DNA of 34,454 nt, taken from NCBI GenBank assembly GCA_003224755.1, contig QHZR01000129.1:1-34454 (forward strand), written 5' to 3'. This document shows, piece by piece, positions 15,116 through 33,098 of the stretch (positions are counted from its first letter, which is position 1; each line of letters begins with the position of its first letter). The DNA comes from Acidobacteriota bacterium (GTDB lineage: Bacteria > Acidobacteriota > Terriglobia > Terriglobales > Acidobacteriaceae). The notes beneath the pieces are model-generated. The model did not search any database and was not told the DNA's origin. It saw only the letters and a list, made by a program, of their open reading frames with translations. The translations under genes and the position numbers were made by a program.

Positions 15116-16582
15116 ATGCACATTTGGAGGGCAATCATTCCCGTGCCTAAGTTCACGCTCAGAGGCCTAAAACCCACGAAGTCATTAGTTCGCTACGGTG
15201 GATTCGTCTTTTCTACAGGGGGATCGCAGCTCGCCGGATTTTTCATCACTTCACTCACGTTTCCGTTTTTAGTGAGGCGGCTCGGAGTGGAAACGTATGG
15301 GCTCTGGAGCTACGTGGCGGAGATATACGTATTCCTCGACCTCCTTTCCAACCCCGGTCTCACGAATTACGCCACACAGCAGGTTGCAGGACGCAGGAAG
15401 GAGGGAGCGGAAATAATCTCTGATCTCCTGCCTTTACGATTGCTCTGCACGACCGTAGCGGTGATCGCTCTGTTTGTAATTGCTTCGTTTGAACCTCGTT
15501 CGGACGTGCGACATTTACTGAAGTTCTATAGTGTTGGATGCTTCCTAGCCCGCCAGTTTGGTGTTGACTATCTGCTCGTAGCCCTAGAAATGTTCCACAC
15601 CCGTGCGGTACTCGCGGTTTGTCAGCAGAGTCTCTATGCAGCCGGCATTTTCCTTTTTGTACGCGGTCCAGAAGATGCGATCTGGGTTCCTGCAAGCATT
15701 GTTTCTTCTGTATTCCTGGCCGGGGCGGCCGGGTGGATGATACTTTGGCGGAGGGGATTCCGTCCTAGGTTTGTCATCAATCCTGGAAGGTGGAAGGGTA
15801 TTCTTGTCCCGAGCATTCATTACGCTATGTCGTACCTCATGGCGACTGGTTACACGCGCGGCGGACATATTATCGTGCGTTGGTTCCTGGGCCCATATGA
15901 GCTCGGTCTCTACGCAGCAGGTCTGCGGCTGATGGACTTTTTGCGGCAATTTATCGTCATGGTGCCCAACGTCCTTATGCCGAGGCTGGCGCTTTCAGCT
16001 CGATCGGAGGCGGAACTGGGTAGACTTGCCCATTTGCTGGGGACCGCGGTCGCACTCCTGAGTCTTCCAATCACGTTCGGATTGATCGGCACGGCTCATT
16101 TGCTTGTGCCCTGGATCCTCGGCCCGAGATACTTCGAGGACGTTTCTTTTTTGCGCTGGATGGCACCTTGCTTGGTAATTGCGTCCTCCGGTTACTTTGT
16201 GCGAACTGTTGCCTATGCGATGGGGCGTCATCGCGCCTACTTCGCATCCTCAGCAGGAGGAGCGGTGACCGGCGTTCTACTTTATTTTGTACTGATTCCA
16301 ACCTTCCGACTGCGAGGCGCTGGCGTCGCCTATACCCTGGGCGAACTTGTGGCTGCAGCGATGGGCTATGCAATGCTTCCGGCGACACTACGGGACCTGT
16401 GGAGGCCGCCAGTAGTGGTGGCCGCTTTAGTTGGCTCTGTGCTGATGGTAACAGCGGTGAGCTGCGCGAATGTTTACAGCGCTCAACCTTTCGTAGTCAT
16501 CTCAATTGGTGCATTAGTCTACCTCCTGAGTTCTGGTTGGTTCGTTCGAAAGTGGCTGGTCGAGCAATTTACGGCCTCATAA
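15116..16582 (+). CDS. Polysaccharide flippase, Wzx-like (MOP superfamily)
   Basis: The product has 488 residues with 12-14 predicted membrane helices. It begins with a basic segment, then GGFVFSTGGSQLAGFFITSLTFPFLVRRLGVETYGLWSY, the classic start of Wzx/RfbX-type transporters with the conserved G-x-x-x-YG-x-W. A middle part contains RGGHIIVRWFLGPYELGLYAAG, also typical. These proteins flip the undecaprenyl-linked repeat unit across the inner membrane, between the glycosyltransferases and the Wzy polymerase. The stop (TAA) overlaps the next gene's ATG as TAATG, so the downstream glycosyltransferase is translationally coupled. Confidence 0.9.
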   Translation: MHIWRAIIPVPKFTLRGLKPTKSLVRYGGFVFSTGGSQLAGFFITSLTFPFLVRRLGVETYGLWSYVAEIYVFLDLLSNPGLTNYATQQVAGRRKEGAEIISDLLPLRLLCTTVAVIALFVIASFEPRSDVRHLLKFYSVGCFLARQFGVDYLLVALEMFHTRAVLAVCQQSLYAAGIFLFVRGPEDAIWVPASIVSSVFLAGAAGWMILWRRGFRPRFVINPGRWKGILVPSIHYAMSYLMATGYTRGGHIIVRWFLGPYELGLYAAGLRLMDFLRQFIVMVPNVLMPRLALSARSEAELGRLAHLLGTAVALLSLPITFGLIGTAHLLVPWILGPRYFEDVSFLRWMAPCLVIASSGYFVRTVAYAMGRHRAYFASSAGGAVTGVLLYFVLIPTFRLRGAGVAYTLGELVAAAMGYAMLPATLRDLWRPPVVVAALVGSVLMVTAVSCANVYSAQPFVVISIGALVYLLSSGWFVRKWLVEQFTAS

Positions 16583-17730
16583 TGATGGCAACGAATTCAA
16601 CAGTTAGCGACTGCCAAATATCTTTATTAGTTCGTGAAACAGACGCACAACGGCGCTTGACACTCGTTACCGATATTATTTCTCCTTATCGAATTCCGGT
16701 GTTCAATGCCTTGGCTCGTCATCGCGGAATCGATCTAAATGTGGTTTTTCTCGCCGATAACGATCCCTCCCGGCAATGGCCGGTGTATAAAAAGGAGATA
16801 CGGTTCCAATATCTGGTTCTGCCATCGTGGAGTCGAAGGTTCGGAAAACATAACTTGCTGCTTAATTGGAGACTGAGCGCGGTGCTGAGGCAGGCCGCCC
16901 CTGAGACGATCATCTGCGGTGGTTACAACTTCGCTGCTTGTTGGCAAACGCTCTGGTGGGCACGGCACAATCGAGTGCCCTTTCTCCTCTGGTCGGAAAG
17001 CACGGCAAGTGATCTTCGCGGAGGTCATCCATTGCCAGAGTTCCTGAAAAAAAGATTCGTCCTCGCGTGCGACGCATTTGTTGTTCCTGGAAAATCTGCA
17101 TGGCAATACATTGCGAGCTTCGGCATTTCAGAAGAAAGGATTTTCAGAGCCCCGAACGCCGTGGATACTGTTCTCTTCGCTAGGGGCGCTGAAGCGGCCT
17201 GCAGAGATCTCGTACGCCGCCAGGAGTTGAGTTTACCTTCCCGTTTTTTTCTCTTTGTCGGCCGCCTAGTGAAGGAAAAGGGTGTATTTGATCTGATCGA
17301 GGCATACAGCAAAATGAGCCCTGAACTCCGTGAGCGAATGGGTTTGGTTCTCGTTGGCGATGGTAAAGCCCGAGCTGAGCTTCAGCGGCGTGCGGCTGTT
17401 ATCAAGCCGGGCTCAATTCATTTCCCTGGTTTTGTGCAGCGCGAGCACTTGTCCAGCTACTATGGGCTGGCTGAGACTTTTGTCTTTCCGACCCACACCG
17501 ATCCCTGGGGCCTCGTTGTCAATGAAGCACTGGCATGTGGATTGCCTGTTATCTGCACCAATGTGGCCGGCTGTGCCGCAGACTTGGTTCAAGACGGCGT
17601 GAATGGGCGTATTGTTCCTGCCGGCGATATAGGCCAACTCGCTGCGGCGATGCAGGACCTAGTGCGTGATGCCGATTGGCGCTCACGAATGAGCGCACAT
17701 TCTAAACTATTCGCCCGAGGCCTGTGCTGA
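16582..17730 (+). CDS. Glycosyltransferase family 4, C terminus apparently frameshifted
   Basis: The ATG at 16582 overlaps the flippase stop. The open frame extends further upstream, but that part is antiparallel to nothing and simply lies out of frame within the flippase gene, so I reject it. The 382-residue product starts with TLVTDIISPYRIPVFNALA. Its C-terminal half has LFVGRLVKEKGVFDLIEAY, LVLVGDGKARAEL and the donor motif DPWGLVVNEALACGLP. The open frame ends SKLFARGLC. In another frame the sequence just there reads NYSPEACADGMAEAALWFAG and stops at 17777-17779, a far more usual GT4 ending. A one-base lesion near 17698-17710 is likely; the enzyme may be intact in the living organism. Confidence 0.85.
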   Translation: MMATNSTVSDCQISLLVRETDAQRRLTLVTDIISPYRIPVFNALARHRGIDLNVVFLADNDPSRQWPVYKKEIRFQYLVLPSWSRRFGKHNLLLNWRLSAVLRQAAPETIICGGYNFAACWQTLWWARHNRVPFLLWSESTASDLRGGHPLPEFLKKRFVLACDAFVVPGKSAWQYIASFGISEERIFRAPNAVDTVLFARGAEAACRDLVRRQELSLPSRFFLFVGRLVKEKGVFDLIEAYSKMSPELRERMGLVLVGDGKARAELQRRAAVIKPGSIHFPGFVQREHLSSYYGLAETFVFPTHTDPWGLVVNEALACGLPVICTNVAGCAADLVQDGVNGRIVPAGDIGQLAAAMQDLVRDADWRSRMSAHSKLFARGLC

Positions 17731-17771
17731 CGGAATGGCAGAGGCGGCATTGTGGTTCGCAGGTTGGAAAC

Positions 17772-19196
17772 GTGAATAACACGCTGATCAAGGTTCTTCC
17801 GCTTGTCGGACTCCTGGTTTGCAGCTTGAGCTTGCTATGCGTGTTATGGGGATTCCCCGTTAATTTTAGCAGCCTGGAGGTCCTCGGGGGAGTACTCTTT
17901 TTGCAGATTCTCGTCGCAGCACTCTGGAAGTATCGTGAGTGCTTTTTTCCGCTGCTTATTCTCATCTTCCTGTGGGCTGGTAGTGATGTCCCACTGAGGG
18001 AAACATGGGCTTTCGGAAGGTGGTTCGTGCTCATAGGTGGTGCAGTGGTTGGATTCGTCGCCTACCTAAAACATACTCATCATCATTTCGGCTTCTTTCA
18101 TCTGGTCGCGCTATCCGCTGGATTAGTTGCCCTGATTTCCGCTTACCAATCGATGCACCCTACCGTGGCCCTATTGAAAGCCGTTAGCCTGTTGATTCTG
18201 TTCGTGTACGCAGCTTCCGGTGCCCGGCTAGCCATAATAGGAAGAGAAGCAAGATTCTTCTCGGGATTACTGATAGCTTGTGAGTTTCTAATCTATGCCA
18301 GCGCGATTTCCTATTTCATCTTCCACTTTGCAATCTTCGGGAACCCGAATTCGCTGGGCGTCGTAACAGGCGTCGTGGTAACACCGCTTATGGTGTGGGG
18401 AGTGCTTGCCACGGAGCGCGTCACGGAGCGGCATCGTAGGTGTATCGGGTTGGCCTTATCGCTTGTGCTTTTGTTTAGCAGTTACTCGCGTGCCGGAATA
18501 CTGGCCGCCGCTGGTTCGAGTGTGTTGCTCGGTATCGCCCTGCGACGATACCGCTGGTTGATAACGGGGGCGGCGATTGCCACCCTGTTCGCGGTCCTGG
18601 TTGCAACTGTTCTCGCACCGCGATCCGATGCATCTTCTAGTGTTGTCGACGCCTTCTTGTATAAGGGGCAACGAGGACACCTGTTAACCTCCCGAAAATC
18701 GATTTGGGATGAGACCACCTCAGTCATCAGACAACATCCGTGGTTCGGCGCCGGCTTCGGCACGAATGTGGCCAGCAGCGACATTTTCAATGAATCAATG
18801 TTTAAATCGTCATCGCAGGCGACAAAGGAACACGGAAGTAGTTACCTGGCAATACTCGAAGGCGTCGGGCTACTTGGAGTCCTCCCTTTCTATACCTTGC
18901 TCTTCCTCGTCTCGGCAAATATTGCTCGTGTGTTCAGACGGGTGCGGCGAACCGGCGATCCTTTGTCCCCTGCGCTACCGGTCGCGGTCGTTCTGCTGGC
19001 GGGCCTCGTCGGTGGTGCTTTTGAAGATTGGATTTTCGGGGTCGGATATTACGCTTGCGTTTTCTTCTGGAGTTTCGCATTTGTGCTAGCTGATCTTGTG
19101 CCGGCCGAGGCATCCGCTCCTTCGCCGGTGATCATCGGCCCATGGCGCAACGGATTTGCGGCCATTCCTCAGGCTGATCATGCACCTGTTTATTAA
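17772..19196 (+). CDS. O-antigen polymerase/ligase-like membrane protein (second Wzy-like)
   Basis: The product has about 474 residues from GTG at 17772 (MNNTLIKVLPLVG). An earlier in-frame GTG at 17724 exists, but it lies in what looks like the true end of the preceding glycosyltransferase. There are about 11-12 hydrophobic helices, a NPNSLGVVTGVVVTPLM segment, SYSRAGILAAAG, and a periplasmic-loop motif HPWFGAGFGTN, all in line with the Wzy_C family. By position between flippase and glycosyltransferase genes this copy is the better candidate for the repeat-unit polymerase. It overlaps the next gene by 17 nt. Confidence 0.85.
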   Translation: MNNTLIKVLPLVGLLVCSLSLLCVLWGFPVNFSSLEVLGGVLFLQILVAALWKYRECFFPLLILIFLWAGSDVPLRETWAFGRWFVLIGGAVVGFVAYLKHTHHHFGFFHLVALSAGLVALISAYQSMHPTVALLKAVSLLILFVYAASGARLAIIGREARFFSGLLIACEFLIYASAISYFIFHFAIFGNPNSLGVVTGVVVTPLMVWGVLATERVTERHRRCIGLALSLVLLFSSYSRAGILAAAGSSVLLGIALRRYRWLITGAAIATLFAVLVATVLAPRSDASSSVVDAFLYKGQRGHLLTSRKSIWDETTSVIRQHPWFGAGFGTNVASSDIFNESMFKSSSQATKEHGSSYLAILEGVGLLGVLPFYTLLFLVSANIARVFRRVRRTGDPLSPALPVAVVLLAGLVGGAFEDWIFGVGYYACVFFWSFAFVLADLVPAEASAPSPVIIGPWRNGFAAIPQADHAPVY

Positions 19197-20454: not shown

Positions 20455-21076
20455 CCTCACACCATATCTTCGGCCTTGCCTCGGTTAAGAGCCGCACGCC
20501 ACCCGCGAGCACGCGGTCCTCCATACCTTCAACATCAATTTTGAGCACTTGTGGGGTGGGGAGGTTGTCAAATAAGCAATCGAGAGTAACCGCCACCACA
20601 CAGTTTGTTTTGCGAGTACCGCCAGCTTGCGTGGTTGCGCCTTGCTCCATGAAATTCGCTGAGCGACCTCGAGATGCAATATGGAGATTACCCAGTCCTA
20701 TTAGATCTGACACAGCAGCTGGGATTACGGTCACAGGAGCACGTCCGCTTACCGCCAGCTCGGCCGATCGGCGCAGCAAACTGACTAGCCAAGTATCCGG
20801 CTCAACAGCGATGACGCGTCCTCGCGGACCGGCTAATCCGGCTGCAGCAAATGTGAACAGCCCAACGTTTGCTCCAATGTCCCAAACGATGTCCCCCGGC
20901 CGTACGAGTTCCACCGCCATTCGAAACAACGTTGGGTCTGCCGTTTCGAGATCGAGGCGGTAGTACTTGAGTCCAGAATCAGGGGAAACAAATAGCGGTC
21001 CACTCCCGAATTGGGTCGGCAGGCGCCGCTTCAGCACAACTCCCCGACTCAGAATCTCGGCCACTCGTCTCAACAT
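20315..21076 (-). CDS. FkbM family methyltransferase (copy 3)
   Basis: The product has 253 residues. Motif I is IVWDIGANVGLFTFAAAG (about 64-80), followed by AVEPDTWLVSLLRRSAEL and the FkbM mark LKIDVEGMEDRVLAGG. The last residues, AVWDTVALPDR, resemble a natural FkbM end, so this reading frame, not the opposing glycosyltransferase tail, is the real one in the overlap. It is the only gene between 13311 and 23144 on the minus strand. A 154-bp divergent region separates it from the amidotransferase gene at 21231. It presumably methylates a sugar of the same polymer. Confidence 0.88.
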   Translation of the reverse strand: MLRRVAEILSRGVVLKRRLPTQFGSGPLFVSPDSGLKYYRLDLETADPTLFRMAVELVRPGDIVWDIGANVGLFTFAAAGLAGPRGRVIAVEPDTWLVSLLRRSAELAVSGRAPVTVIPAAVSDLIGLGNLHIASRGRSANFMEQGATTQAGGTRKTNCVVAVTLDCLFDNLPTPQVLKIDVEGMEDRVLAGGVRLLTEARPKIWCEVSSRNAERVSKILQGANYRMYNGSLDPVPRTRLSQAVWDTVALPDR

Positions 21077-21230: not shown

Positions 21231-23144
21231 ATGTGCGGTATTGTTGGAATCCTTGCGCGCAATTGTACTGTCGACCCCAACCTCTTGGAGCGCTCGACGC
21301 AATCCCTTGCACACCGTGGCCCGGACGACTCTGGCACGATCATCATTTGTGCGACTAGCCCAGGGCCAATCGAAATCGGTCTGGGGAACCGGCGCCTCGC
21401 GGTTCTCGATCTTTCGCCCTTGGGCCACCAGCCGATGCAAGATCCAGAGACCGGAAACTGGATTGCATTCAATGGCGAGATCTACAACTTCCGTGAAATT
21501 CGCAAGGAATTGGAGGACGACGGTGCTCGTTTTCGCAGCAACTCCGATACGGAAGTGCTACTGCGAGCTTATGGACGTTGGGCCGAGCATTGTTTGCGGA
21601 GATTGCGCGGGATGTTCGCATTGGCAATCTGGGACGCGCAACGACACAGACTTTTACTCGCCCGTGATCCGATGGGTATTAAGCCTCTGTACTATTCCTC
21701 TTCCGGCGCCTACTTTCTGTTTGCCTCCGAACTCCGCACCCTTCTCGGTACGGGGCTGGTGCCCAGGAGACTAGATCACGCTGGTCTGCTTAATTATCTG
21801 GCATTCGGCTCTCTTTACGATCCCGTGACCCTGATCGAAGGCATCTCGGTTCTGCAGCCAGGGCACTATCTGATCTGGCAAAGCGGTACTGTCCGCAATG
21901 AAACTTATTGGGAGATCGCGCAGGCGGCACAACAAAGACGTTCGGTTTACAGCCTCCCACACCGTGCGGAATTACAACACGGACTCAATACTGACATCGA
22001 CGCAGCGGTTCGGATGCAACTCGTCAGCGATGTTCCCATCGGCGTATTTCTTTCGGGTGGAATTGATTCGAGCTCTCTGGCTGGGATTTTAAGTCGTAGC
22101 GGCATTCGTCCTAACACTTTTTCCGTGGTTTTTCGCGAGCAAGACTACAGCGAAGCGGAGTATTCCCGCTTGGTGGCGCGAAGATTTCGAACTGAGCATC
22201 ACGAGATCCTGGTGTCGCAGCACGACGCCTTGGAAGCCGTACCCTCGGCTCTAAATTCCATGGACCAGCCCACCGTAGATGGTCTCAACACTTATTTCAT
22301 TTCTCGGCAGGCGCGTAAGGCGGGAATTAAGGTGGCGCTCTCTGGCCTGGGCGGGGATGAACTATTTGCGGGATACTCCAGTTTTAACAGCGTTCCGCGC
22401 ATGGAGCGTTTTGAGTCATTCTGGCGTCATCTTCCCAAACGACTGCAGTTATATCTCGCGCGCGCCTTCAATTTCTTCTTCCCCGACACGGATCAGACAC
22501 GAAAGCTCGCCGTGTTGGCAGAGGCGAATGGTAACCTGCTGCATCCTTATTTCCTCTCTCGCATGCTCTTCACTCCTGCACAGCGCTACTTGCTTTGTCG
22601 GAACCAAAAGCCCGACGCAATCGCGCGAGCCAAAGCGCCGCTCTTAGAAAATCTCGGACACAGTTCTGCTATGGATGCCATCAATCGAGTCTCGTATCTG
22701 GAGCTGCGATGCTATATGCTGAACACTCTGCTTAGGGATACGGACGCCATGAGCATGGCGCATGGAGTCGAGATCAGAGTTCCCTTCGTTGATCACGTTC
22801 TAGCCGAGAAGCTGTTGAGCATTCCCGGTCCTTCGAAACTCGAGGGCAGTGTACCCAAACCACTGCTGGTGGGGGCACTTGGTGGTGACTTGCCGAAGAG
22901 AGTTGTCCACCGCAGAAAACGGGGCTTTACTTTGCCGTTTGAGCACTGGTTACGGGATGAGTTGAAGTCTGAAGTCGCGCAGGGTCTTGCGAGAATCGGA
23001 GATGGCCCTCTTGCTTCAGTGCTACACCTTGACACGGTTCGCGGGGTCTGGGAGAACTTCCAACGCGGAACCACTTCGTGGTCACGTCCTTGGTCACTGT
23101 ACGTATTACAGCGATGGTGTGAAATTAACGGGGCGGCTGTTTAG
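21231..23144 (+). CDS. asnB: Asparagine synthetase (glutamine-hydrolysing) family amidotransferase 1
   Basis: The product has 637 residues. The glutaminase half begins MCGIVGI with Cys2 as nucleophile after Met removal, followed by HRGPDDSG, FNGEIYNF and SNSDTEVL. The synthetase half has the PP-loop FLSGGIDSSS (275-281 core) and SGLGGDELFAGY (371-382). Family members make asparagine; within surface-polysaccharide loci close homologues are thought to amidate uronic acids, as with WbpS-type proteins. The ATG is unambiguous because Cys must follow it, and GGA lies about 9 nt upstream. It overlaps the convergent methyltransferase gene by 20 bp. Context favours sugar amidation over asparagine supply, but the sequence cannot prove it. 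Confidence 0.93.
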   Translation: MCGIVGILARNCTVDPNLLERSTQSLAHRGPDDSGTIIICATSPGPIEIGLGNRRLAVLDLSPLGHQPMQDPETGNWIAFNGEIYNFREIRKELEDDGARFRSNSDTEVLLRAYGRWAEHCLRRLRGMFALAIWDAQRHRLLLARDPMGIKPLYYSSSGAYFLFASELRTLLGTGLVPRRLDHAGLLNYLAFGSLYDPVTLIEGISVLQPGHYLIWQSGTVRNETYWEIAQAAQQRRSVYSLPHRAELQHGLNTDIDAAVRMQLVSDVPIGVFLSGGIDSSSLAGILSRSGIRPNTFSVVFREQDYSEAEYSRLVARRFRTEHHEILVSQHDALEAVPSALNSMDQPTVDGLNTYFISRQARKAGIKVALSGLGGDELFAGYSSFNSVPRMERFESFWRHLPKRLQLYLARAFNFFFPDTDQTRKLAVLAEANGNLLHPYFLSRMLFTPAQRYLLCRNQKPDAIARAKAPLLENLGHSSAMDAINRVSYLELRCYMLNTLLRDTDAMSMAHGVEIRVPFVDHVLAEKLLSIPGPSKLEGSVPKPLLVGALGGDLPKRVVHRRKRGFTLPFEHWLRDELKSEVAQGLARIGDGPLASVLHLDTVRGVWENFQRGTTSWSRPWSLYVLQRWCEINGAAV

Positions 23145-24012
23145 CTATTGGAGGTTTACGGCCCGAAATCAGCAGAAAAAGTCCCCACGTCTTGCAAAAC
23201 CTCCTTGCCAAAATGCGTGGGTAGAGGTTCCATACTAGTCGATACAACTGGGATTGGAAGCGCGCTGAAGGCTTATTCAGCAGGAGATCGCCGGGACTGA
23301 AAACTTGCCTTACGATCACCTCTTCAAATCCTTCCATGATCGCGTGTACTTCTGCTTTAGTATAGGTTTTGGTAGCGGGGCTTTCCAGGTACTCGCAAAT
23401 AGTTCCGCGCAGGGTTTTTCCTCTCCATAGACCATAGCGCAGCCACAGCATGGCTCCCGTAAGCGAGGGGTGGTGATAGATCATGATGCGCGCCTCGCCG
23501 CCGGGCTTTAGAATTCGCCACGCTTCCCGAACACACTTCGAGGTGTCCGGACTATGATGCATCACCCCATAGGAATAGACGATGTCAAAGCTCTCGTCGG
23601 GAAATTGAAGCCGCTCCGCATCGGCCACCTGCAAATCAGGAGAGTAGCCGGCCAATGCACATCGCCGGCGCGCCTTCTCAATCGACGCCGCAGAGAGATC
23701 GACACCGGTTGCACGCGCTCCGACCTTTAGCCATTCGAGGTAATCGGCTCCTGTACCGACGCCGATTTCCAGCACTCTGAGTCCACGTGCAGTGGCGAAA
23801 CCGGCGAACTCTGGAATATGGGGTTCGAGCAGGTAGCGGACTCGCGCGTGAGCGGCGAAATCTTCAGCTCTCCCCATATAACGTGTTCCGCACGGATCGG
23901 CGTTCCAAAACCCTCCCACACGATCTTTCAAGTCTAGGGCGGGATCATGAACTAGATTGGAGGTGCTACGAGCACTTGGCATAAGGAATAACTCGAAACC
24001 GGATGCTACCAC
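23125..24012 (-). CDS. Class I SAM-dependent methyltransferase
   Basis: The product has 295 residues with a Methyltransf_11-type core. Motif I is VLEIGVGTGADYLEWLK (about 80-96), then GVDLSAASIEKARRR, ADAERLQFPDESFDIVYSYGVMHH and WRILKPGGEARIMIYHH. The region before the core (FWNADPCGTRYMG) resembles methyltransferases often found in glycan and natural-product loci. The C-terminal 100 residues carry a hydrophobic stretch (LVWNLYPRILARRF, then WGLFLLISG) that may touch the membrane. The start may be ATG 24012 or the later ATG 23982 (MPSARST); both leave the core intact. The substrate is unknown, most likely a lipid-linked sugar or small precursor. Confidence 0.88.
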   Translation of the reverse strand: MVASGFELFLMPSARSTSNLVHDPALDLKDRVGGFWNADPCGTRYMGRAEDFAAHARVRYLLEPHIPEFAGFATARGLRVLEIGVGTGADYLEWLKVGARATGVDLSAASIEKARRRCALAGYSPDLQVADAERLQFPDESFDIVYSYGVMHHSPDTSKCVREAWRILKPGGEARIMIYHHPSLTGAMLWLRYGLWRGKTLRGTICEYLESPATKTYTKAEVHAIMEGFEEVIVRQVFSPGDLLLNKPSARFQSQLYRLVWNLYPRILARRFCKTWGLFLLISGRKPPIAKQPPR

Positions 24013-24091: not shown

Positions 24092-25021
24092 ATGGACACA
24101 CTCGAGGCACCCCGGACACTCCGCTCGCCCAAATCGGTTCCGCGCCTTCCGATTAGCGTGATCGTGCCGACGCGAAATGAGTCCCGAAACCTGCCTCGCT
24201 GTCTGGAATCGCTGGGCGAGGCTGGCGAGGTATTCGTCATCGACTCGCAGAGCACGGATGAAACGGTGGAAGTCGCTCGCGCATATGGCGCAAACGTCGT
24301 TCAGTTCTACTACCAAGGCGGTTGGCCTAAAAAGCGCCAGTGGGCCATGGAGACGTTGTCGTTCGGGTGCGACTGGCTACTCCTACTTGATGCCGACGAA
24401 GCCCTTACTCCAGCGTTGATGGACGAGATCGAGAAGGCCATTCAGAATCGAGGGATAGATGGATACTACCTGTCGCTACAAATGTGTTTCCTCGGGCGTA
24501 GATTGCGGCACAGTGGAGCAAACTTTTATAAGCTCCCTCTTTTCAGGCGGGGCAAAGCCTCATTTGAGTGCCGATTGCAGCAGCAGGACAGTTCGATGTG
24601 TGACATGGAGGTCCATGAACACGTCGTGGTCAAGGGAAAAACAGCCAAGTTGAAGAACCCTCTTCTGCACCAGAATGTCGACTCCCTCTCGCGCTATATC
24701 CGGAAGCACGATGAGTACTCGAATTGGGATGCACACGTCTGGCAGCACCAGACCGAGGCGCAGCCGGACCACAAGGGTGCGTTGGGGCCAAGATTGTTTG
24801 GCACACAGGCGGAGCGCCGTCGCTGGCTCAAGAAATACTTCTTCAGCTTTCCCGGCTCATCTGTTTTGTTTTTCATTTACAAATACATTTTTCGCCTCGG
24901 ATTTCTCGACGGTGTGCCCGGACTCATTTATTGCGGCCTGCAAGGCGTTCAGTTCTTTCATATCAAGGCGAAAATTTACGAATTGCGTATCCAGGGGAAC
25001 CGACGCACGTGTGCGGAATAA
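24092..25021 (+). CDS. Glycosyltransferase family 2
   Basis: The product is 309 residues from the ATG at 24092; the frame is open further back to 23957, but that part lies against the divergent methyltransferase's start and is not family-like. The GT-A fold shows PISVIVPTRNESRNLPRCLESL, EVFVIDSQSTDETVEVA and the DxD motif in LLLLDADEALTP. The pattern, including the GWPKKRQWAME stretch, is close to WaaE/KdtX-type enzymes that add a beta-linked glucose or related sugar. The C-terminal region has hydrophobic segments (SSVLFFIYKYIFRLG) that may associate with the membrane. It overlaps the next gene by 13 nt. Confidence 0.9.
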   Translation: MDTLEAPRTLRSPKSVPRLPISVIVPTRNESRNLPRCLESLGEAGEVFVIDSQSTDETVEVARAYGANVVQFYYQGGWPKKRQWAMETLSFGCDWLLLLDADEALTPALMDEIEKAIQNRGIDGYYLSLQMCFLGRRLRHSGANFYKLPLFRRGKASFECRLQQQDSSMCDMEVHEHVVVKGKTAKLKNPLLHQNVDSLSRYIRKHDEYSNWDAHVWQHQTEAQPDHKGALGPRLFGTQAERRRWLKKYFFSFPGSSVLFFIYKYIFRLGFLDGVPGLIYCGLQGVQFFHIKAKIYELRIQGNRRTCAE

Positions 25022-26997
25022 GTGGACTCGTTAACTGCGGCAGTCGCGAAGTTTTGGCTCGGATGACTTCGGTTCAACTTCACCGCGGCCCGGATGACAG
25101 CGGCATGTGGGAACAGCGCTTCCCAGATGGCTCCTACGTTGGTTTGGGCAGCCGACGCCTCGCCATCATTGATCTTTCGCCAGGCGGCCATATGCCCATG
25201 TGTAACGAGGATGGCACAGTATGGATCACCTACAACGGCGAAATCTACAACTTCGCTGAACTCCGCGCCGAGTTGCAGAGCAAGGGACATCACTTCGCAT
25301 CCAATGCCGACACCGAGGCCCTTATACATCTGTACGAGGAAGAAGGATACGATTGCGTGAAGCGGCTGAACGGCATGTTCGCGTTCGCGATCTGCGATCT
25401 GCGTTCAGGTAAGCCGGTGCTATTTCTGGCCCGCGATCACTTTGGCATAAAGCCGTTCTATTACGCTCAACGCGGTAAGAGATTAGCCTTCGCGTCCGAA
25501 ATTAAAGCATTGTTGCAGGTACCCGGAATCGAGGCCGAGATCGATCCGGAATCATTGCATCAGTATCTGACGTTCCTCTGGGTCCCGGATCCGAAAACAA
25601 TGTTCCGGGAAATCCACAAACTTCCTCCTGGACATTACGCTCTTTTTTGCGATGGGCAACTCAGAATAGCAAAATACTGGGACCTGGCCTTCCCCCCGAA
25701 GGACTATCTGTTTCGGCGCTCAGAGGAGGAACTGGCCGTCGAAATTCGCGAGCGCTTTCGTCGTTCCGTGCAAGGTCAGATGGTCAGCGATGTTCCCGTC
25801 GGCGCGTTTTTGAGTGCCGGGCTGGATTCCTCCAGTATCGTCGCAACCATGGCGCGGATTTCCCAGCGGCCGGTCCGGACCTACACCATTACTTTTCCGC
25901 CGAAGTATCGCGTTGGGGAAAACGCACTCGACGATCCAGACGCAGCTGCTCGATTGGCCCGGAGATTAGGATGTGAGAATCACCAGCTGACGGTTGAGCC
26001 TGACGTTGCTGATTTGTTGCCTCGGCTGGTCTGGCATATGGATGAGCCCACGGCGGACCCCGCCATTATCGCGGCGTACTTGGTATGCCGAGAAGCGCGC
26101 CGCGACGTCAGCGTCCTTTTATCAGGCATAGGCGGAGATGAACTATTCGGCGGATACCGCAAGTATGCTGGCCATTACTGGGCTGAGGTTTATCAGCGAG
26201 TGCCGCAACCGATACGCAAGCTCACCAATCTAGCAATTTCCCGGCTTCCGGGCCTACGCGGAACTCCGGCTAAAGGCGTAATCCGGCTTGCAAAGAAAAT
26301 GGCCCGCAGCGCCTCTCTGGCGCCGCTTGAGCGGTTCATAATGAACTGCACATACTTGGACCGGGAACAGAAAGCAGCCCTCTACACTCCGGCCCTCCAG
26401 GATGAAGTCGGCACATTTGATCCTTGCGTGCGGCATCTCGCGACTTTCGAACAAGTTCAGGACTCGGATTTCTTGAACCAAATGCTGTATCTCGATACCA
26501 AGATTTTCATGCCCTCCCTTAATTTGACCTACAACGACAAAATGAGCATGGCCTCCTCGGTAGAAGTTCGGGTGCCTTTTCTGGATCGCGAACTGGCTGA
26601 GTTCGCCGCTTGGAATTTGCCTCCGAAGCTGAAGGTGAAAGGATCTTTGAGGGCGACGACGAAATACATTTTTCGCGAAGCTATGCGGGATGTTCTGCCC
26701 CGGGAAGTCTTGCAGCAACCCAAAGCGGGGTTGGCGGCGCCGATTGATTACTGGTTGGCGCATGATTTAACAGCCATGGTGGACGATTTGCTATGCGAAT
26801 CGCGCATTCGAACGCGAGGCCTCTTCCGGCCCGAGGCCGTGCGAACCCTGATACGCCAGCAACGTGCAGGCATGCAGGATTGGTCGATGCAAATCTGGCA
26901 GTTGCTCACCCTGGAACTTTGGATGCAGGCATTCCTTGACGCAGGGGCGAGAGGAGCGTCGGAGGTGATGCTAGTGCCGCAGGCCGCGACGGCATGA
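25009..26997 (+). CDS. asnB: Asparagine synthetase family amidotransferase 2
   Basis: The open frame extends upstream to 24724, but the family must start with Met-Cys-Gly-Ile. GTG at 25009 followed by TGC GGA ATA gives exactly that, with AGGGG 11 nt upstream. The product is 662 residues. The glutaminase half has HRGPDDSG, YNGEIYNF and SNADTEAL; the synthetase half has LSAGLDSSS (269-275 core, Ala where most have Gly) and SGIGGDELFGGY (372-383). It overlaps the GT2 gene by 13 nt and the next gene by ATGA, so GT2, amidotransferase and dehydrogenase fusion form one translational unit. Given the neighbouring dehydrogenase and epimerase, I infer amidation of a uronic acid or a related acid sugar. 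Confidence 0.93.
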   Translation: MCGISGLVNCGSREVLARMTSVQLHRGPDDSGMWEQRFPDGSYVGLGSRRLAIIDLSPGGHMPMCNEDGTVWITYNGEIYNFAELRAELQSKGHHFASNADTEALIHLYEEEGYDCVKRLNGMFAFAICDLRSGKPVLFLARDHFGIKPFYYAQRGKRLAFASEIKALLQVPGIEAEIDPESLHQYLTFLWVPDPKTMFREIHKLPPGHYALFCDGQLRIAKYWDLAFPPKDYLFRRSEEELAVEIRERFRRSVQGQMVSDVPVGAFLSAGLDSSSIVATMARISQRPVRTYTITFPPKYRVGENALDDPDAAARLARRLGCENHQLTVEPDVADLLPRLVWHMDEPTADPAIIAAYLVCREARRDVSVLLSGIGGDELFGGYRKYAGHYWAEVYQRVPQPIRKLTNLAISRLPGLRGTPAKGVIRLAKKMARSASLAPLERFIMNCTYLDREQKAALYTPALQDEVGTFDPCVRHLATFEQVQDSDFLNQMLYLDTKIFMPSLNLTYNDKMSMASSVEVRVPFLDRELAEFAAWNLPPKLKVKGSLRATTKYIFREAMRDVLPREVLQQPKAGLAAPIDYWLAHDLTAMVDDLLCESRIRTRGLFRPEAVRTLIRQQRAGMQDWSMQIWQLLTLELWMQAFLDAGARGASEVMLVPQAATA

Positions 26998-29204
26998 AAC
27001 AAGTTCTGCAATACGCTGGGACTGGCGACGTCGAGGTTGTCGAAGTTCCCGCGCCCAAATTGCTTCCTGCATGCGCCCTTGTCCGTCTCGCGGCTTCAGT
27101 GGTTTCAGCCGGTACGGAGCGTGCTTCTTCGGAATTCGCCCGCAAGAATCTCCTGCAGAAGGCGCACGCACGCCCTGATCTAGTGCGTGATGTGATCGGC
27201 AAAGTTCGCCGGGACGGCTTCGCTTCCGCCTTCGCGGCGGTTCGCAGTCGTCTCGATCAGCCGGTCGCGCTCGGATACAGCAGTGCAGGAACGGTGGTGG
27301 AGGTTGGCGAAGGTGTCACAGACGTCGGGGTTGGCGATCGTGTCGCCTGTGCCGGAGCCGGCTACGCCGTCCACGCGGAATTTGCCTGCATTCCCCGCTT
27401 GCTACTCACAAAAATTCCAGCCTCCAATGTGACATTTCAGAATGCCGCTTTCGCAACCATGGGCGCCGTTGCACTGCACGGTGTCCGAACCGCCGATGCA
27501 AAGCTTGGCGATGTAATCGCCGTGGTCGGTCTTGGCTTACTGGGTCAACTGACGGTGCAGATCCTCAAGGCAGCGGGATGCCGTGTCCTCGGCATGGATG
27601 TGGTTGCCGAACGGGTGGCACTTGCCTGCAGATTGGGAGCAGATGCGTCGAGTACTTCGCCGTCCGAGTTTCGCGACCTGTGCCTGCAGCAGTCAGGAGG
27701 TCGCGGTGTAGACGCGATTCTGATCACTGCGCAGACCAGCACTAGTGATCCCGTCAATTTCGCCGCCGAGATTGCGCGGGATCGCGCGGTGGTCGTCGCC
27801 GTTGGGGCCGTAGGAATGGATATTCAACGCAAGCTTTTCTACGAGAAAGAACTCGATTTCCGCATGTCGCGATCATACGGGCCCGGACGATACGATTCCG
27901 CTTACGAACAAAAAGGCATTGACTACCCGATCGGCTACGTGCGCTGGACGGAAACGCGCAACATGGATGCTTTTCTTCGCCTGTTGGCTGATCGCAAATT
28001 GGACACGGAAGCGCTCGTCACTCATCGATTTGCCATCGAACGGGCGCACTGTGCTTATGACCTAATCAGCGGGAGAACCGGCCAGCCGTTCTTGGGCGTA
28101 CTCATCACGTATCCACAGGACAGTGATGAAAAGCGGGTCGTCGAATTGGTCAAAAAGAGCGTTATCCCTGCCGGCATCGCGGTTAAATCATTGTCCATTG
28201 GCCTTCTCGGAGCTGGCGGCTTTGCCATGAGTACGTTATTGCCCGCCCTTAAGAAGGTGGACGGACTGAATTTGGTTGGCGTTTGCAGTGCCACTGGTCC
28301 ACACGCTCGGCATGCTGCCGCGAAGTTTGGGTTCCGCTATTGTGCTACAGATGAGGAAAGTATTTTGAATGACGCCGCGATTGCCACTGTGGTGATTGCC
28401 ACTCGCCATCACCTGCACGCCTCACAAGTCATAGCTGCACTGCAGGCGGGCAAGCACGTGTTCTGTGAGAAACCTCTATGTTTGCGCGAAGAGGAACTAT
28501 TGGCGATCATCCGGACCTACAAAAATGAACGCTTGCGTACCAAGCCCTTGTTGATGATTGGCTTCAACCGGCGTTTTGCCCCCTTGGCACAGCGGATGAA
28601 AGCGTTTCTCCGGCAGGTCCACGAGCCGCTGGCTCTTCACTATCGCGTGAACGCAGGCTTTATTGCTGCCGACGACTGGGTCAACGATTCGAGCCAGGGC
28701 GGCGGACGCATCCTCGGAGAAGTTTGTCATTTCGTGGATTTCCTTTCTTTTCTGATCGGGGCTCCTCCGGTTAAAGTGGAAACTCGCAGCCTGACCAACC
28801 CCGGCAAATACAGCGCTGACAACGTGGTTATCTCTCTTCATTTTCCGGAAGGATCGCAAGGAACTGTTACTTATGTGGCGAACGGGGACAGCTCGTATTC
28901 AAAGGAGCGAGTAGAGGTTTTCGGTGGTGGGGCTGTGGCTGCCCTGGAAGACTTTCGCCGCCTGGAGCTGGTACGGCACGGTCGCAAGCAGATATTCAGA
29001 AGTCTGCTGCATCAAGATAAGGGACACTGTGCCGAGTGGCAAGCCTTTGCAAAAGCCATCCGTACGTCGGAAGAAGCTCCCATCCCGTTTGACGACATTG
29101 TCGCGACAACGTTGGCCACACTGCGAGCCGGGGAATCGCGCTCTGCAGAGAAATGTGTAATCGTGGATGCTGCACACTTTATAGCTTCAGCATCAGCAAA
29201 CTGA
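26994..29204 (+). CDS. Two-domain oxidoreductase: zinc-type alcohol dehydrogenase fused to Gfo/Idh/MocA
   Basis: The product has 736 residues. Residues 1 to about 375 are a medium-chain dehydrogenase-like domain with GYSSAGTVVEVGEGVTDVGVGDRVA and the nucleotide-binding VVGLGLLGQLTVQ (about 177-190). From about 399 a second dinucleotide fold starts (SIGLLGAGGFAMSTLLPAL), with KHVFCEKPL (487-495) and FNRRFAPL, the marks of Gfo/Idh/MocA enzymes. This fusion is known from exopolysaccharide loci, often near heparinase-like and amidotransferase genes, with unproven substrates. It probably oxidises or reduces a nucleotide sugar. Zinc ligands are not obvious in the first domain. The gene overlaps the amidotransferase by ATGA and precedes the C5-epimerase-like gene by 14 bp. 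Confidence 0.92.
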   Translation: MKQVLQYAGTGDVEVVEVPAPKLLPACALVRLAASVVSAGTERASSEFARKNLLQKAHARPDLVRDVIGKVRRDGFASAFAAVRSRLDQPVALGYSSAGTVVEVGEGVTDVGVGDRVACAGAGYAVHAEFACIPRLLLTKIPASNVTFQNAAFATMGAVALHGVRTADAKLGDVIAVVGLGLLGQLTVQILKAAGCRVLGMDVVAERVALACRLGADASSTSPSEFRDLCLQQSGGRGVDAILITAQTSTSDPVNFAAEIARDRAVVVAVGAVGMDIQRKLFYEKELDFRMSRSYGPGRYDSAYEQKGIDYPIGYVRWTETRNMDAFLRLLADRKLDTEALVTHRFAIERAHCAYDLISGRTGQPFLGVLITYPQDSDEKRVVELVKKSVIPAGIAVKSLSIGLLGAGGFAMSTLLPALKKVDGLNLVGVCSATGPHARHAAAKFGFRYCATDEESILNDAAIATVVIATRHHLHASQVIAALQAGKHVFCEKPLCLREEELLAIIRTYKNERLRTKPLLMIGFNRRFAPLAQRMKAFLRQVHEPLALHYRVNAGFIAADDWVNDSSQGGGRILGEVCHFVDFLSFLIGAPPVKVETRSLTNPGKYSADNVVISLHFPEGSQGTVTYVANGDSSYSKERVEVFGGGAVAALEDFRRLELVRHGRKQIFRSLLHQDKGHCAEWQAFAKAIRTSEEAPIPFDDIVATTLATLRAGESRSAEKCVIVDAAHFIASASAN

Positions 29205-29218
29205 CTTTTTCGGTGTAT

Positions 29219-30199
29219 ATGTCGCTATCAGATCGTTTCAATTACTACCACCGAATCCTACCTGTGTACCTCACCCCCCGCCACAGCCAGCTCACTTTCT
29301 GGCATGAAATGCCGGAAGCCAACCCTCGTGCCCGTCGCAACAAGCTCGATCAATACTACATGCGTTTTTCAGCAAAGGCTGACTATTCTGGACATTACGA
29401 TTTAGCCGGTATTCCCATGCTTGATTATCATGGACGAATTGGTTTGCAGTACAACCCGATTGCGATAGCCCAATGGGGGTTGGGCAACTACAACTTGTGG
29501 TGTCGCACTGAGAGCGACGGGCGCAAGAATAAATTTCTTGCCGCAAGCGACTGGCTGCGCTCTCATCTGGAGAAGAATTCCTTTGGCATTTGGGTGTGGA
29601 ACCATCACTTTGATTGGGAATATCGGACTGAGCTGAAAGCGCCCTGGCACTCAGGACTGGCACAAGGACAGGGCATTTCTCTATTAGTCCGGGCATACTG
29701 CGAAACCGGCGACCGGGGTTATTTCGAAGCTGCTGAGCGTGCTTTCACCGGCTTTCTGAAACCGACGACGGAGGGCGGTGTATCTTTCACTGACAATCGT
29801 GCAGATCTTTGGTTTGAGGAATACGTCGTCTCTCCGCCCACGCACATCTTGAACGGCTTCATCTGGGCCATGTGGGGCGTGTACGATTATTTCCTCGCAA
29901 CCGCCAGCAGTTCCGTGCGACTCTTGTTCGAGCGCGCAGTTCGCACATTGGAACGGAATCTCGATTCTTATGACCTCGGCTTTTGGTCCCTATATGAGCA
30001 ATCCAGTCTTCGGATTCCAATGGTGGCGAGCTCTTTCTATCATCAGTTGCACATTGTGCAGTTGCGAATCATGGCCTTTCTGACCCACAAGGAAGTGTTC
30101 GCGCGCTACGCTGCGCGATGGGAGAATTACCGCCGCAGCCGCACCAAACGAACCTGCGCCTTGTGCTACAAAAGCGCATTCAAACTCTGTTACTACTGA
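29219..30199 (+). CDS. D-glucuronyl C5-epimerase C-terminal domain protein
   Basis: The product has 326 residues from ATG 29219; the open frame before this lies in the dehydrogenase gene. It matches the Glce_C family pattern: GIPMLDYHGRIGLQYNPIAIAQWGLGNYN (about 64-92), WHSGLAQGQGISLLVRAY (143-160), and WFEEYVVSPPTHILNGFIWAMWGVYDY (about 198-224). In animals this domain converts D-glucuronic to L-iduronic acid in heparan sulfate. The bacterial family also has members acting on heparosan-like or other uronic-acid polymers. No signal peptide is visible, so the protein appears cytoplasmic. The C terminus is rich in Arg/Cys/Tyr. Epimerase activity on this locus's sugar is an inference from the family. 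Confidence 0.85.
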   Translation: MSLSDRFNYYHRILPVYLTPRHSQLTFWHEMPEANPRARRNKLDQYYMRFSAKADYSGHYDLAGIPMLDYHGRIGLQYNPIAIAQWGLGNYNLWCRTESDGRKNKFLAASDWLRSHLEKNSFGIWVWNHHFDWEYRTELKAPWHSGLAQGQGISLLVRAYCETGDRGYFEAAERAFTGFLKPTTEGGVSFTDNRADLWFEEYVVSPPTHILNGFIWAMWGVYDYFLATASSSVRLLFERAVRTLERNLDSYDLGFWSLYEQSSLRIPMVASSFYHQLHIVQLRIMAFLTHKEVFARYAARWENYRRSRTKRTCALCYKSAFKLCYY

Positions 30200-30205
30200 A
30201 AAACT

Positions 30206-31474
30206 GTGAAGATACTGTATGTATCGCAATATTTCCAGCCGGAGATGGGAGCGCCTGCGGCGCGTGCCGCCGAGTTGGCTCGGTATTGGGCACGTGGTGG
30301 ACACGAGGTTACCGTACTGACCGGGTTTCCGAATCATCCAACTGGTGTGGTTCCACTCGAATATCGCAGCAAGTTTCGACGGATGATCGGACGTGAGGAT
30401 TCTGAAGGAGTGAAAGTCGTTCGCACCTGGCTGCTTCCATTTCCCAATCGCAAGCCTTACGAGCGCATGTTGAATTACAGCTCATTTTGCCTGTCGGCTG
30501 GCATCACTGGCCTGTTTCTGAGGCGGCCCGATGTGATCATCGCGAGTTCACCGCAACTGCTCGTTGGACTCTCCGGTTGGTGGATTGCCCGCAACAAGAG
30601 CGTGCCGTTCATCTTTGAGATCCGCGATTTGTGGCCTGAGTCTCTAGCAGCCGTCGGTATGGGGAGCGAAGCTTCACTGCTTCATCGCTCGCTAGGGAAA
30701 ATCGCAGATTTCCTGTATCGGTGTGCCGACCATGTGGTTGTCGTTACTCCCGCATTCCAGAAGTATCTAGCTGAGCATCGGCGCGTGCCGCCGGAGAAGC
30801 TCTCGGTAATCGAAAACGGAGTTGAAATCGACCTCTTCAGCCCTCAGAGCACAAATCCCGATGTCAGAAAGGAATTGGAGGCAGATGGCAAATTCATTGT
30901 TTCTTATATCGGGACTATGGGCATGGCTCATGGTCTGGAGACCCTGGTCGAGACGGCAGCGCAATTGCAGGGCGTAGCCCGCGAAGTCCTCTTTCTGGTG
31001 GTTGGAGAAGGTTCTGACAAGCAGCACGTTATCGATCTTGTGCGCTTACGGGGCCTGACGAATGTTCGTTTCCTGGGTCAACAGCCACGCGAGAAGATTC
31101 CTGCTTACATCTCTGCCTCCGACGCTTGTCTGGTCCATCTCAAAAAAAGCGATATTTTCAAGACGGTCATTCCCACCAAGATGCTGGAGTTTATGTCATG
31201 CGCGCGTCCGGTAATCCTGGGCGTCGACGGACTGGCCCGAGAGATTGTGGAGGAAGCGCAGGCAGGAATTTTCATCGAGCCGGGAAATGCCGCGGATCTG
31301 GCCCGGGCAGTGATAACACTATTGTCCAACTCTCGGCTCCGCGAGTTTTTCGGCCGCAACGGCCGTCGATACGTCGTTCAGAATTATTCTCGGCAACAGA
31401 CCGCCCGCGCCTACATCGACCTATTGAAAAATGTAGTGGGAGAACGAGTGCAGCATTGTGCGGCAGGAGTCTGA
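30206..31474 (+). CDS. Glycosyltransferase family 4, WbuB-like
   Basis: The product has 422 residues from GTG 30206, 6 bp after the epimerase-like gene. The start MKILYVSQYFQPEMGAPAAR with LTGFPNHPTG is the hallmark of the WbuB/CapM-like GT4 group, which transfers aminosugars such as N-acetylfucosamine in O-antigen assembly. The central part has FEIRDLWPESLAAVG and the C-terminal half VSYIGTMGMAHGLETLVE, LVVGEGSDKQ and PTKMLEFMSCARPVILG. It closes the plus-strand block, and only 10 bp separate its stop from the convergent Wza-type gene. The exact sugar cannot be told from sequence. Confidence 0.92.
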   Translation: MKILYVSQYFQPEMGAPAARAAELARYWARGGHEVTVLTGFPNHPTGVVPLEYRSKFRRMIGREDSEGVKVVRTWLLPFPNRKPYERMLNYSSFCLSAGITGLFLRRPDVIIASSPQLLVGLSGWWIARNKSVPFIFEIRDLWPESLAAVGMGSEASLLHRSLGKIADFLYRCADHVVVVTPAFQKYLAEHRRVPPEKLSVIENGVEIDLFSPQSTNPDVRKELEADGKFIVSYIGTMGMAHGLETLVETAAQLQGVAREVLFLVVGEGSDKQHVIDLVRLRGLTNVRFLGQQPREKIPAYISASDACLVHLKKSDIFKTVIPTKMLEFMSCARPVILGVDGLAREIVEEAQAGIFIEPGNAADLARAVITLLSNSRLREFFGRNGRRYVVQNYSRQQTARAYIDLLKNVVGERVQHCAAGV

Positions 31475-31484
31475 GTACTGGAAT

Positions 31485-32495
31485 TCATGGATGCACTGCC
31501 GCCACACTCATAAAGGTTGCCGTCTGCATCGCGGCTTCGAGGGTGCGCCCGGCCAGAATCTTTCCTCTGCTTGCAGGTACGACGAGAATGTCATCTGCTT
31601 GTAGCGAAATATCCTGTGCTTTTGCATTGAGAATATTTTGCAGGTGTATTGGAGTTTCGGACATTCCGTTGGCACCCTTGCGGATGATTTTTGCACCATT
31701 GAGCTTAGCTGTCCGGTTGGTACCACCAGCCAGAGCGATCGCTTGTAGCACGGTTATCGATCCAGAATCCAAGAGCAGCCCAGTTGGTTTCGCAACGTCC
31801 CCGACCACATAGACAACATCGGCTTTACGCACAGCAATTGTGTCCCCAGGGAATATCTGGATATTACTCTCCGTTTTATCCGCTAGATTCCGAGCCAGCG
31901 TTACGATTAGCGGCCTGTCTGATTGATTGCGATGTGTAACGGTGACGCTGTGCCCTGCTTTCTCTGTAAGACCTCCCGCGGCTGAAATGAGATCGAACAG
32001 CCTCTGTTCCCCTAGAACCGGATATATCCCTGGTTTAGCAACCTCTCCAAGAACGCTGGCACCTGCTGAAGTGTATTCGTTCACGAATAACATCACATGC
32101 GGGCTATTCAGAAACCCACCGTCCGAGAGCCGCTTCTCAATAATCGCCTGGGCCTCTTCGACGGTAAGTCCGGCAACATGGACGTAATCGATCAGAGGAA
32201 GGTAAACGTCTCCATTGTTGCCCACGCGAGTTTTGGTAGAGAGCTCCGGAACGTTATAGACGCTGAATTCCAGCAGATCGCCGGTTCCCAGCCGCAGTGA
32301 CGAATCCGCAGTCGCTTTATGGTCCGATTCTTGGGCCGCGCGTGAATGCTGGCCCTTTGTCGGAACAGCACTAGGAAATACTTCAGGCATGGGCACGAAT
32401 TCAGCCGGCCGATCCTGGGCAATTACTAAACCTGGAACCATGAGAATCAGGAAGAGAAATACCAAGACCACGGGTTTCCATCGAAGACGCGACAT
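31485..32495 (-). CDS. Polysaccharide export protein, Wza-like (SLBB domains)
   Basis: I choose ATG 32495 because AAAAGG lies 8 nt before it and it gives a clean signal peptide (MSRLRWKPVVLVFLFLILMV, cleavage near IAQ-DR). Longer frames start at 32513 or 32537. The product is 336 residues. A Poly_export domain (GTGDLLEFSVYNVPEL, then LPLIDYVHVAGLTVEEAQ) is followed by two SLBB domains (SVLGEVAKPGIYPVLGEQRLFDLISAAGGL and VYVVGDVAKPTGLLLDSGSITVLQAIALAGG). Wza-type proteins form the outer-membrane or trans-periplasmic export channel and work with the Wzc-like kinase. No lipobox Cys follows the signal, so it is probably not acylated, unlike Wza of Escherichia coli. A 3'-end hydrophobic tail (TFMSVAAVHP) is short. 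Confidence 0.93.
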   Translation of the reverse strand: MSRLRWKPVVLVFLFLILMVPGLVIAQDRPAEFVPMPEVFPSAVPTKGQHSRAAQESDHKATADSSLRLGTGDLLEFSVYNVPELSTKTRVGNNGDVYLPLIDYVHVAGLTVEEAQAIIEKRLSDGGFLNSPHVMLFVNEYTSAGASVLGEVAKPGIYPVLGEQRLFDLISAAGGLTEKAGHSVTVTHRNQSDRPLIVTLARNLADKTESNIQIFPGDTIAVRKADVVYVVGDVAKPTGLLLDSGSITVLQAIALAGGTNRTAKLNGAKIIRKGANGMSETPIHLQNILNAKAQDISLQADDILVVPASRGKILAGRTLEAAMQTATFMSVAAVHP

Positions 32496-32537
32496 TGTAA
32501 GAACCTTTTGCATCGCAGTGAGAAGAAAGTCTAGCAC

Positions 32538-32964: not shown

Positions 32965-33029
32965 CTTGAAATCCGGTATACCCGGAAGGAAGGAGTATAT
33001 CGAGGGTTCGAATCCCTCCCTCTCCGCCA
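32965..33029 (+). tRNA. 3' fragment of tRNA-Ser(UGA), probable attachment-site remnant
   Basis: The sequence matches a tRNA-Ser from the anticodon loop to the CCA end. Loop CTTGAAA (32965-32971) carries anticodon TGA (32967-32969). The 3' anticodon strand is TCCGG, and a long variable arm follows with TATAC/GTATA pairing (32977-32999). The T arm is GAGGG-TTCGAAT-CCCTC (33002-33018), the acceptor strand CCTCTCC, then G73 and CCA (33027-33029). The expected partners, GGAGAGG and the 5' anticodon strand CCGGA, are absent upstream, so the gene is broken exactly at the anticodon loop. That is a common crossover point for tyrosine integrases, and one is encoded 70 bp downstream. Confidence 0.85.
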
Positions 33030-33098
33030 GACCTTTATTTTTCTTGTGTTTAAAAGCCATGTGTGCCACAATGAGTGCCAGTATTGCTGAGGTGGCAC

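Follow-up and report, generated by a model that had tools for sequence, protein, structure and literature searches.

Glucuronyl C5-epimerase (GLCE)-like activity is already known from bacteria: the report on Bermanella marisrubri RED65_08024, a bacterial GLCE homologue, describes the conversion of GlcA to IdoA in vitro, with desulfated heparan sulfate as the substrate of the published assay, and presents the host polysaccharide as uncharacterised (PMC4432689). In archaea, Agl32 of Halobacterium salinarum, a C5-epimerase comprising the helical domain only, epimerises GlcA in a lipid-linked oligosaccharide before this is flipped across the membrane (PMC13308652). Two further systems, both from surface-polysaccharide contexts, resemble the one analysed here in that a dehydrogenase gene lies next to one for an alpha/alpha-toroid enzyme of uronates. 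The zbdP-hepP operon of P. aeruginosa PA14 encodes an MDR plus Gfo protein, i.e., with the domain order of the bi-domain oxidoreductase (BiOx) described below, and a heparinase-like protein in which no export signal was detected; clearing of heparin has been reported for recombinant HepP, and transposon mutants in hepP and in zbdP do not share the same phenotype (PMC5732420). Judging from its occurrence in few strains, one of them of serotype O10, and from the names ORF_10 and ORF_11, this operon probably lies in the O-antigen cluster, and the PA14 O-antigen contains alpha-L-GalNAcA (PMC2997053). In V. vulnificus YJ016, deletion of either VV0357 (known as a "zinc-binding dehydrogenase") or VV0358 (heparinase III-like) abolished the capsule (PMC6037467), which agrees better with a part in biosynthesis than with one in clean-up. 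In contrast with the present locus, the partner in both of these systems is a heparinase II/III and not a PF06662 protein. No description of the cassette context reported here as a pathway was found in the literature searched.

The window, i.e., the whole stretch of 34,454 nucleotides that was analysed, is an entire contig (C492) of a draft genome of 5.68 Mb in 628 contigs, the nearest relatives of which are Acidobacteriota of subdivision 1 (gp1), Terriglobia. It carries five consecutive forward-strand ORFs encoding a GT2 glycosyltransferase, an AsnB-type amidotransferase, BiOx, an epimerase and a GT4 glycosyltransferase (24092-31474; Table 1). GT2 and AsnB overlap by 13 nt and AsnB and BiOx by 4 nt, with gaps of 14 bp between BiOx and the epimerase and 6 bp between the epimerase and GT4, and the five-gene order, coordinates and spacing (overlaps of 4-13 nt, gaps of 6-14 bp) given in the first-pass annotation were thus borne out by the ORF calls. 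GT2 keeps its position upstream of AsnB and BiOx in relatives, GT4 (1e-47 against the WcaI family model PRK10307, under that model's cut-off) follows the epimerase in nearly all of them, and the Wza gene, unchanged in place and strand, forms the conserved downstream border of the cassette.

Table 1. Features of the window and, in the last three rows, of related loci.
Feature	Position	Strand	Length (aa)	Domain matches
Minus-strand ORF	3022-5415	-	797	
Second Wzy_C protein	5530-6909			Wzy_C
Wzc	8171-10516			Wzz/AAA_31
FkbM-type methyltransferase	13311-14225			
FkbM-type methyltransferase	14336-15055			
Wzx-type flippase	15116..16582	+		PF01943 (Polysacc_synt) 3.3e-23
Wzy-type polymerase / O-antigen ligase	17724..19196	+		PF04932 (Wzy_C) 3.4e-16
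FkbM-type methyltransferase	20315-21076			
Second AsnB-type amidotransferase	21231-23144		637	
Fourth methyltransferase	23125-24012	-		
GT2 family glycosyltransferase	24092..25021	+	309	PF00535 (Glycos_transf_2) 5.2e-15
AsnB-type glutamine amidotransferase	25009..26997	+	662	PF13537 (GATase_7) 5.2e-45, PF00733 (Asn_synthase) 2.1e-98
Bi-domain oxidoreductase BiOx	26994..29204	+		PF00107, PF08240, PF01408, PF22725
D-glucuronyl C5-epimerase family protein, helical domain only	29219..30199	+	326	PF06662 1.1e-48
GT4 glycosyltransferase, WcaI/WbuB-like	30206..31474	+	422	PF00534 (Glycos_transf_1) 3.9e-25
Wza-type polysaccharide export protein	31485..32537	-		PF02563 (Poly_export) + SLBB
tRNA-Ser 3' fragment	within 32970-34250			
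Tyrosine-type integrase	33075-34250			
Beta-propeller protein	L018:8873-9958		360	none in Pfam
Formyltransferase + alpha/alpha-toroid protein	L110:4184-6267			weak GH127, C5-epim_C
DUF362 + CapK-type adenylating enzyme	L113:5524-8489			

With flippase, polymerase, Wzc and Wza genes together, the cluster is, judged by its gene content, a Wzx/Wzy-type exopolysaccharide locus, and the presence of the flippase implies that repeat units are assembled in the cytosol. Neither a sulfotransferase nor an N-deacetylase/N-sulfotransferase was found among the window ORFs scanned with Pfam, and since the remainder is an ordinary Wzx/Wzy locus, the "glycosaminoglycan-like" polymer proposed in the first-pass annotation is left unsupported. 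A promoter and terminator scan gave a site count not above that of shuffled sequences.

The cluster also includes three FkbM-type methyltransferases, a fourth methyltransferase and, some 2 kb upstream of the cassette, a second AsnB-type amidotransferase that is conserved in relatives. The 797-aa ORF shows weak C-terminal matches to the K1-lyase C-terminal domain and to a phage polysaccharide-deacetylase family. At the other end of the window, a 3' fragment of tRNA-Ser, identical over 26 nt to the complete tRNA-Ser(GCT) at G000:C256, is immediately followed by the integrase ORF, which makes it a probable attachment site for an integrative element flanking the polysaccharide genes.

The epimerase matches C5-epim_C (PF06662) with 165.6 bits against a curated cut-off of 23.3, covering positions 2-187 of 188, and phmmer searches of the PDB returned animal GLCEs only (6hzz, 2.8e-29), as did a 45-sequence profile. 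An AlphaFold2 model (pLDDT 89.5) compared by means of Foldseek and VIA-align placed five GLCE entries on top (Z 31-32, 275-277 residues, rmsd of about 3), led by human GLCE 6i02 (Z 31.9, rmsd 3.0, 275 residues), with the cellobiose 2-epimerases as the next structural family (Z 17). The five catalytic residues of human GLCE listed in PMC13308652 (E499, Y500, N510, Y560 and Y578) correspond to identical residues of the window protein (E201, Y202, N212, Y259 and Y274), the numbering having been cross-checked through the residue spacing in the human chain, which reproduces it. Agl32, in contrast, is without the GLCE catalytic residues. Sequence and model thus agree in identifying a true GLCE-family protein; a possible loss of the catalytic tyrosines was checked for, all three (Y202, Y259 and Y274) are present, and the first-pass assignment to this family stands. 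Among 45 relatives E201, N212, Y259 and Y274 are invariant, while Y202 is replaced by T or A in the four distant relatives L038, L039, L049 and L060, which keep the other four catalytic residues and may serve as a natural test of the need for Y500.

The window protein differs from animal GLCE (PDB 6HZZ, 4PW2), with which it shares the helical catalytic domain, in having neither a counterpart of the central beta-sandwich (about 180 residues, human ~224-402) nor a signal or Golgi anchor. The phmmer alignment accordingly skips from chain position 133 to 313, and the structural alignment places its 275 residues over a span of 457, so that the bacterial protein would essentially be the GLCE helical catalytic domain. 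Whereas the animal enzyme acts on finished heparosan, the window protein sits in a bacterial Wzx/Wzy locus, and neither it nor its relatives show evidence of a signal peptide by hydropathy, which supports the cytoplasmic location suggested earlier.

BiOx consists of an N-terminal MDR/alcohol-dehydrogenase-like domain (ADH_zinc_N, 4e-13), with GLGLLG at 179, and a C-terminal Gfo/Idh/MocA domain (GFO_IDH_MocA, 1e-21), with EKP at 492; both motifs (G179-L-G181-L-L-G184 and E492-K493-P494) are conserved across 74 sequences, and annotated plasmids name the homologues "bi-domain-containing oxidoreductase". By eye, the positions that usually hold the catalytic zinc seem to be replaced in the MDR domain (GYS for GHE), and the Gfo/Idh/MocA domain shows a weak resemblance to UDP-GlcNAc 3-dehydrogenase and inositol dehydrogenases. 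We know of no established activity of BiOx; an epimerase working by oxidation and reduction could make use of two dehydrogenases joined in a single chain.

AsnB begins with a GTG start followed by TGC, giving an N-terminal Cys (Cys2), and contains the ATP-pyrophosphatase motif SAGLDSS at 269; with the glutaminase Cys and this motif intact, its designation as an amidotransferase is supported. It scores 490 bits against TIGR01536 (cut-off 267) and shares full-length GATase_7 and Asn_synthase domains with the AsnB-type polysaccharide amidotransferases of TIGR03108 (XrtA/PEP-CTERM amidotransferase), but at 538 bits it falls under the cut-off of that model (817) and is therefore placed in a sister group. 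Other AsnB-type polysaccharide amidotransferases are WbpS and WbtH.

PF06662 is rare in the phylum, being found in 8 of 396 sampled genomes. The window genome has two copies, each adjoining a BiOx gene, and three BiOx genes in total, so that the adjacency of the two families is far beyond chance. The second copy (contig C196) lies in the order AsnB, BiOx, carbamoyltransferase, propeller, epimerase, GT4, Wza; the arrangement of the cassette is found again in dozens of named loci of Acidobacteriota, and a scan of reference genomes yielded 48 relatives, mainly from Acidobacteriota with a few from Chloroflexota, Myxococcota and Gemmatimonadota. The comparative data thus mark BiOx, to which the first-pass annotation had given no role, as the core partner in the cassette. 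Many PF06662 loci, those of the Sulfotelmatobacter group, lack a neighbouring BiOx.

The usual arrangement is GT2, AsnB, BiOx, a NodU-like carbamoyltransferase, a beta-propeller protein, epimerase, GT4 and Wza. The window locus is without the carbamoyltransferase and the propeller, as are L055, L065 and L021, and in the 14-bp gap between BiOx and the epimerase of the window no remnants of either were found. As these gaps fall inside a clade of the epimerase tree in which the pair is usual, loss is the simplest reading, with weak branch support near the window. The propeller protein (about 39 relatives), whose gene immediately precedes that of the epimerase in the majority of Acidobacteriota loci, has many invariant residues, no Pfam family and no signal peptide; its fold is supported by structure prediction, and no specific relative was found in the PDB. 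The idea that it substitutes for the missing beta-sandwich was rejected, because it folds as a propeller and, being absent from the window and other loci, is not essential.

The neighbours of BiOx were also compared in loci chosen by BiOx alone within the class, with flanks of 5 kb or more in both directions (n=36). PF06662 was present in 6 of these, heparinase II/III in 18, neither in 12 and both in none, an exclusion with a Fisher p of 0.019 when kinship is ignored; outside this set, L049 has PF06662 and a heparinase-like gene together. The heparinase-like proteins of this slot match heparinase III (5jmd, 2.6e-59), retain its Asn-His, Tyr and His-Asn motifs and, by hydropathy, have no signal peptide. 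The nearest such exchange is seen in a locus from the window's own family (L110 in genome G013), which keeps GT2, AsnB, BiOx, GT4 and Wza but carries a heparinase-like gene and lacks PF06662; genes for a formyltransferase and an alpha/alpha-toroid protein are inserted there as well. In the window itself no heparinase or alginate lyase was found, the best tblastn match (E 0.006) lying within the GT4 gene. In other phyla, viewed through annotated plasmids, comparable groupings are seen in Sphingobium (wecB, wecC, CapK, BiOx, heparinase), Parabacteroides (BiOx, heparinase, wecC, wecB) and Streptomyces (AsnB, BiOx, alginate-lyase family). The animal glycosaminoglycan epimerases GLCE and DSE represent one fold of each of these two general kinds, GLCE-type and heparinase-type. 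The possibility that the heparinase-slot proteins are closer to DSE than to heparinase III found no support, DSE and DS-epimerase being absent from the PDB sequence matches of the slot profile.

The AsnB slot is exchangeable as well. Between L018 and L020, whose BiOx and epimerase are 92% and 90% identical, AsnB is replaced by a DUF362 protein and a CapK-type adenylating enzyme, and these two, mostly paired, also stand beside BiOx in the place of AsnB in L113, L025, L123, L132, L142 and L145. Both alternatives are carboxyl-activating, which suggests an amide-forming slot, and from this exchange with a CapK-type ligase the carboxylate of a uronic acid would be the acceptor of AsnB.

With regard to the identity of the sugar, the BiOx and epimerase genes of several related loci flank one for a UDP-GlcNAc 2-epimerase (WecB), an arrangement that points towards sugars of the ManNAcA type. 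Among BiOx loci, a gene for WecB or a nucleotide-sugar dehydrogenase is present in 11 of the 24 that also have an epimerase-type gene and in 1 of the 12 that do not (p = 0.03, kinship ignored). Neither gene was found in the window, and the genome encodes homologues of both UDP-glucose dehydrogenase and WecB, so that GlcA and ManNAcA cannot be chosen between by genome content. Of the original proposal, uronic-acid handling holds up, but the WecB genes of relatives speak for a ManNAcA-type sugar and not for iduronic acid as the product; iduronic acid and a glycosaminoglycan-like polymer must be regarded as unsupported guesses, the substrate being beyond what can be derived from sequence.

We propose, with a confidence slightly short of even, that the five genes may form a cytosolic module by which a D-hexuronic acid of the Wzx/Wzy exopolysaccharide repeat unit is remodelled. 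As a GLCE-type enzyme without a signal peptide is encoded in a Wzx/Wzy locus, the candidate substrates would be cytosolic, i.e., a lipid-linked repeat unit, for which Agl32 offers a precedent, or a nucleotide sugar. The substrate, order of steps, lipid-linked stage and BiOx role that we infer would be as follows: the glycosyltransferases would build the lipid-linked repeat unit; BiOx, by means of its two dehydrogenase domains, would oxidise and then re-reduce one ring hydroxyl, most likely that at C3, resulting in its inversion; the helical-only GLCE-family enzyme would invert C5, giving an L-hexuronic acid; AsnB would turn the carboxylate into an amide; and Wzx would flip the completed unit, with polymerisation taking place afterwards. 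Inversion of D-Man at both C3 and C5 yields L-Gal, and L-GalNAcA, the sugar known from the PA14 O-antigen, is related to D-ManNAcA in the same way; a D-ManNAcA precursor would thus give L-GalNAcA (as the amide), and a D-GlcA precursor an L-talo acid, or L-IdoA should BiOx have a different sugar as its substrate. That BiOx is a two-domain redox epimerase and carries out, together with a GLCE-fold or heparinase-fold C5-epimerase, a double inversion of a D-hexuronic acid in the cell is a tentative possibility, kept well below even because no precursor gene was found in the window and the 12 BiOx loci counted above have no epimerase-type neighbour, and lowered also by the PF06662 loci without BiOx, the differing hepP and zbdP phenotypes and the clearing of heparin by HepP.

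It is rather unlikely, on balance, that the epimerase simply converts GlcA to IdoA on a cytosolic lipid-linked repeat unit, with AsnB amidating a uronic acid and BiOx serving another sugar or step. This would agree with the closest solved relatives being GLCEs, whose substrate is GlcA, with the IdoA made from GlcA in vitro by RED65_08024 (PMC4432689), with the UDP-glucose 6-dehydrogenase homologue in the genome and with the finding of no WecB gene in the window, but a separate pathway for BiOx is made unlikely by its gene lying 14 bp upstream and by both PF06662 copies adjoining BiOx, and related loci place WecB between the two.

To our knowledge no GLCE-family enzyme acts on UDP-GlcA, which counts against a route at the nucleotide-sugar level, where BiOx and the epimerase would convert a cytosolic UDP-D-hexuronic acid into a UDP-L-hexuronic acid for addition by a glycosyltransferase. 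The GLCE-type enzymes named above and Agl32, moreover, use GlcA that is glycosidically bound and flanked by other sugars (PMC13308652), making this route improbable in spite of the cytosolic location of the enzymes, the frequent adjacency of UDP-sugar genes and the resemblance of the C-terminal domain of BiOx to UDP-GlcNAc 3-dehydrogenase and inositol dehydrogenases.

In alginate synthesis, AlgL provides a precedent for quality control at export. That the PF06662 protein is an AlgL-like lyase, hydrolase or binding protein of this kind and not an epimerase is very improbable: heparinase-like genes can occupy its slot and were taken for heparinases or clean-up lyases in PMC5732420 and PMC6037467, but neither family has a signal peptide, which leaves periplasmic polymer out of reach, all five GLCE catalytic residues are kept, and deletion of either Vibrio gene abolishes the capsule (PMC6037467).

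In conclusion, the cassette is real, conserved and ordinary-looking, and its epimerase is a minimal GLCE-family member in an exchangeable context. A small, signal-free GLCE catalytic domain could help in making heparin-type sugars. If the cytosolic remodelling of a D-hexuronic acid is true, it provides a route, open to testing, by which bacterial polysaccharides acquire L-configured uronic acids, and double inversion would supply the general route, so far missing, to L-GalNAcA and other L-hexuronic acids. The slot exchange suggests that GLCE-type and heparinase-type alpha/alpha-toroid families would stand in for each other in bacteria, and, if the double inversion holds, many of the cytosolic "heparinases" and alginate lyases of surface-polysaccharide loci (capsule, O-antigen) would be biosynthetic epimerases.
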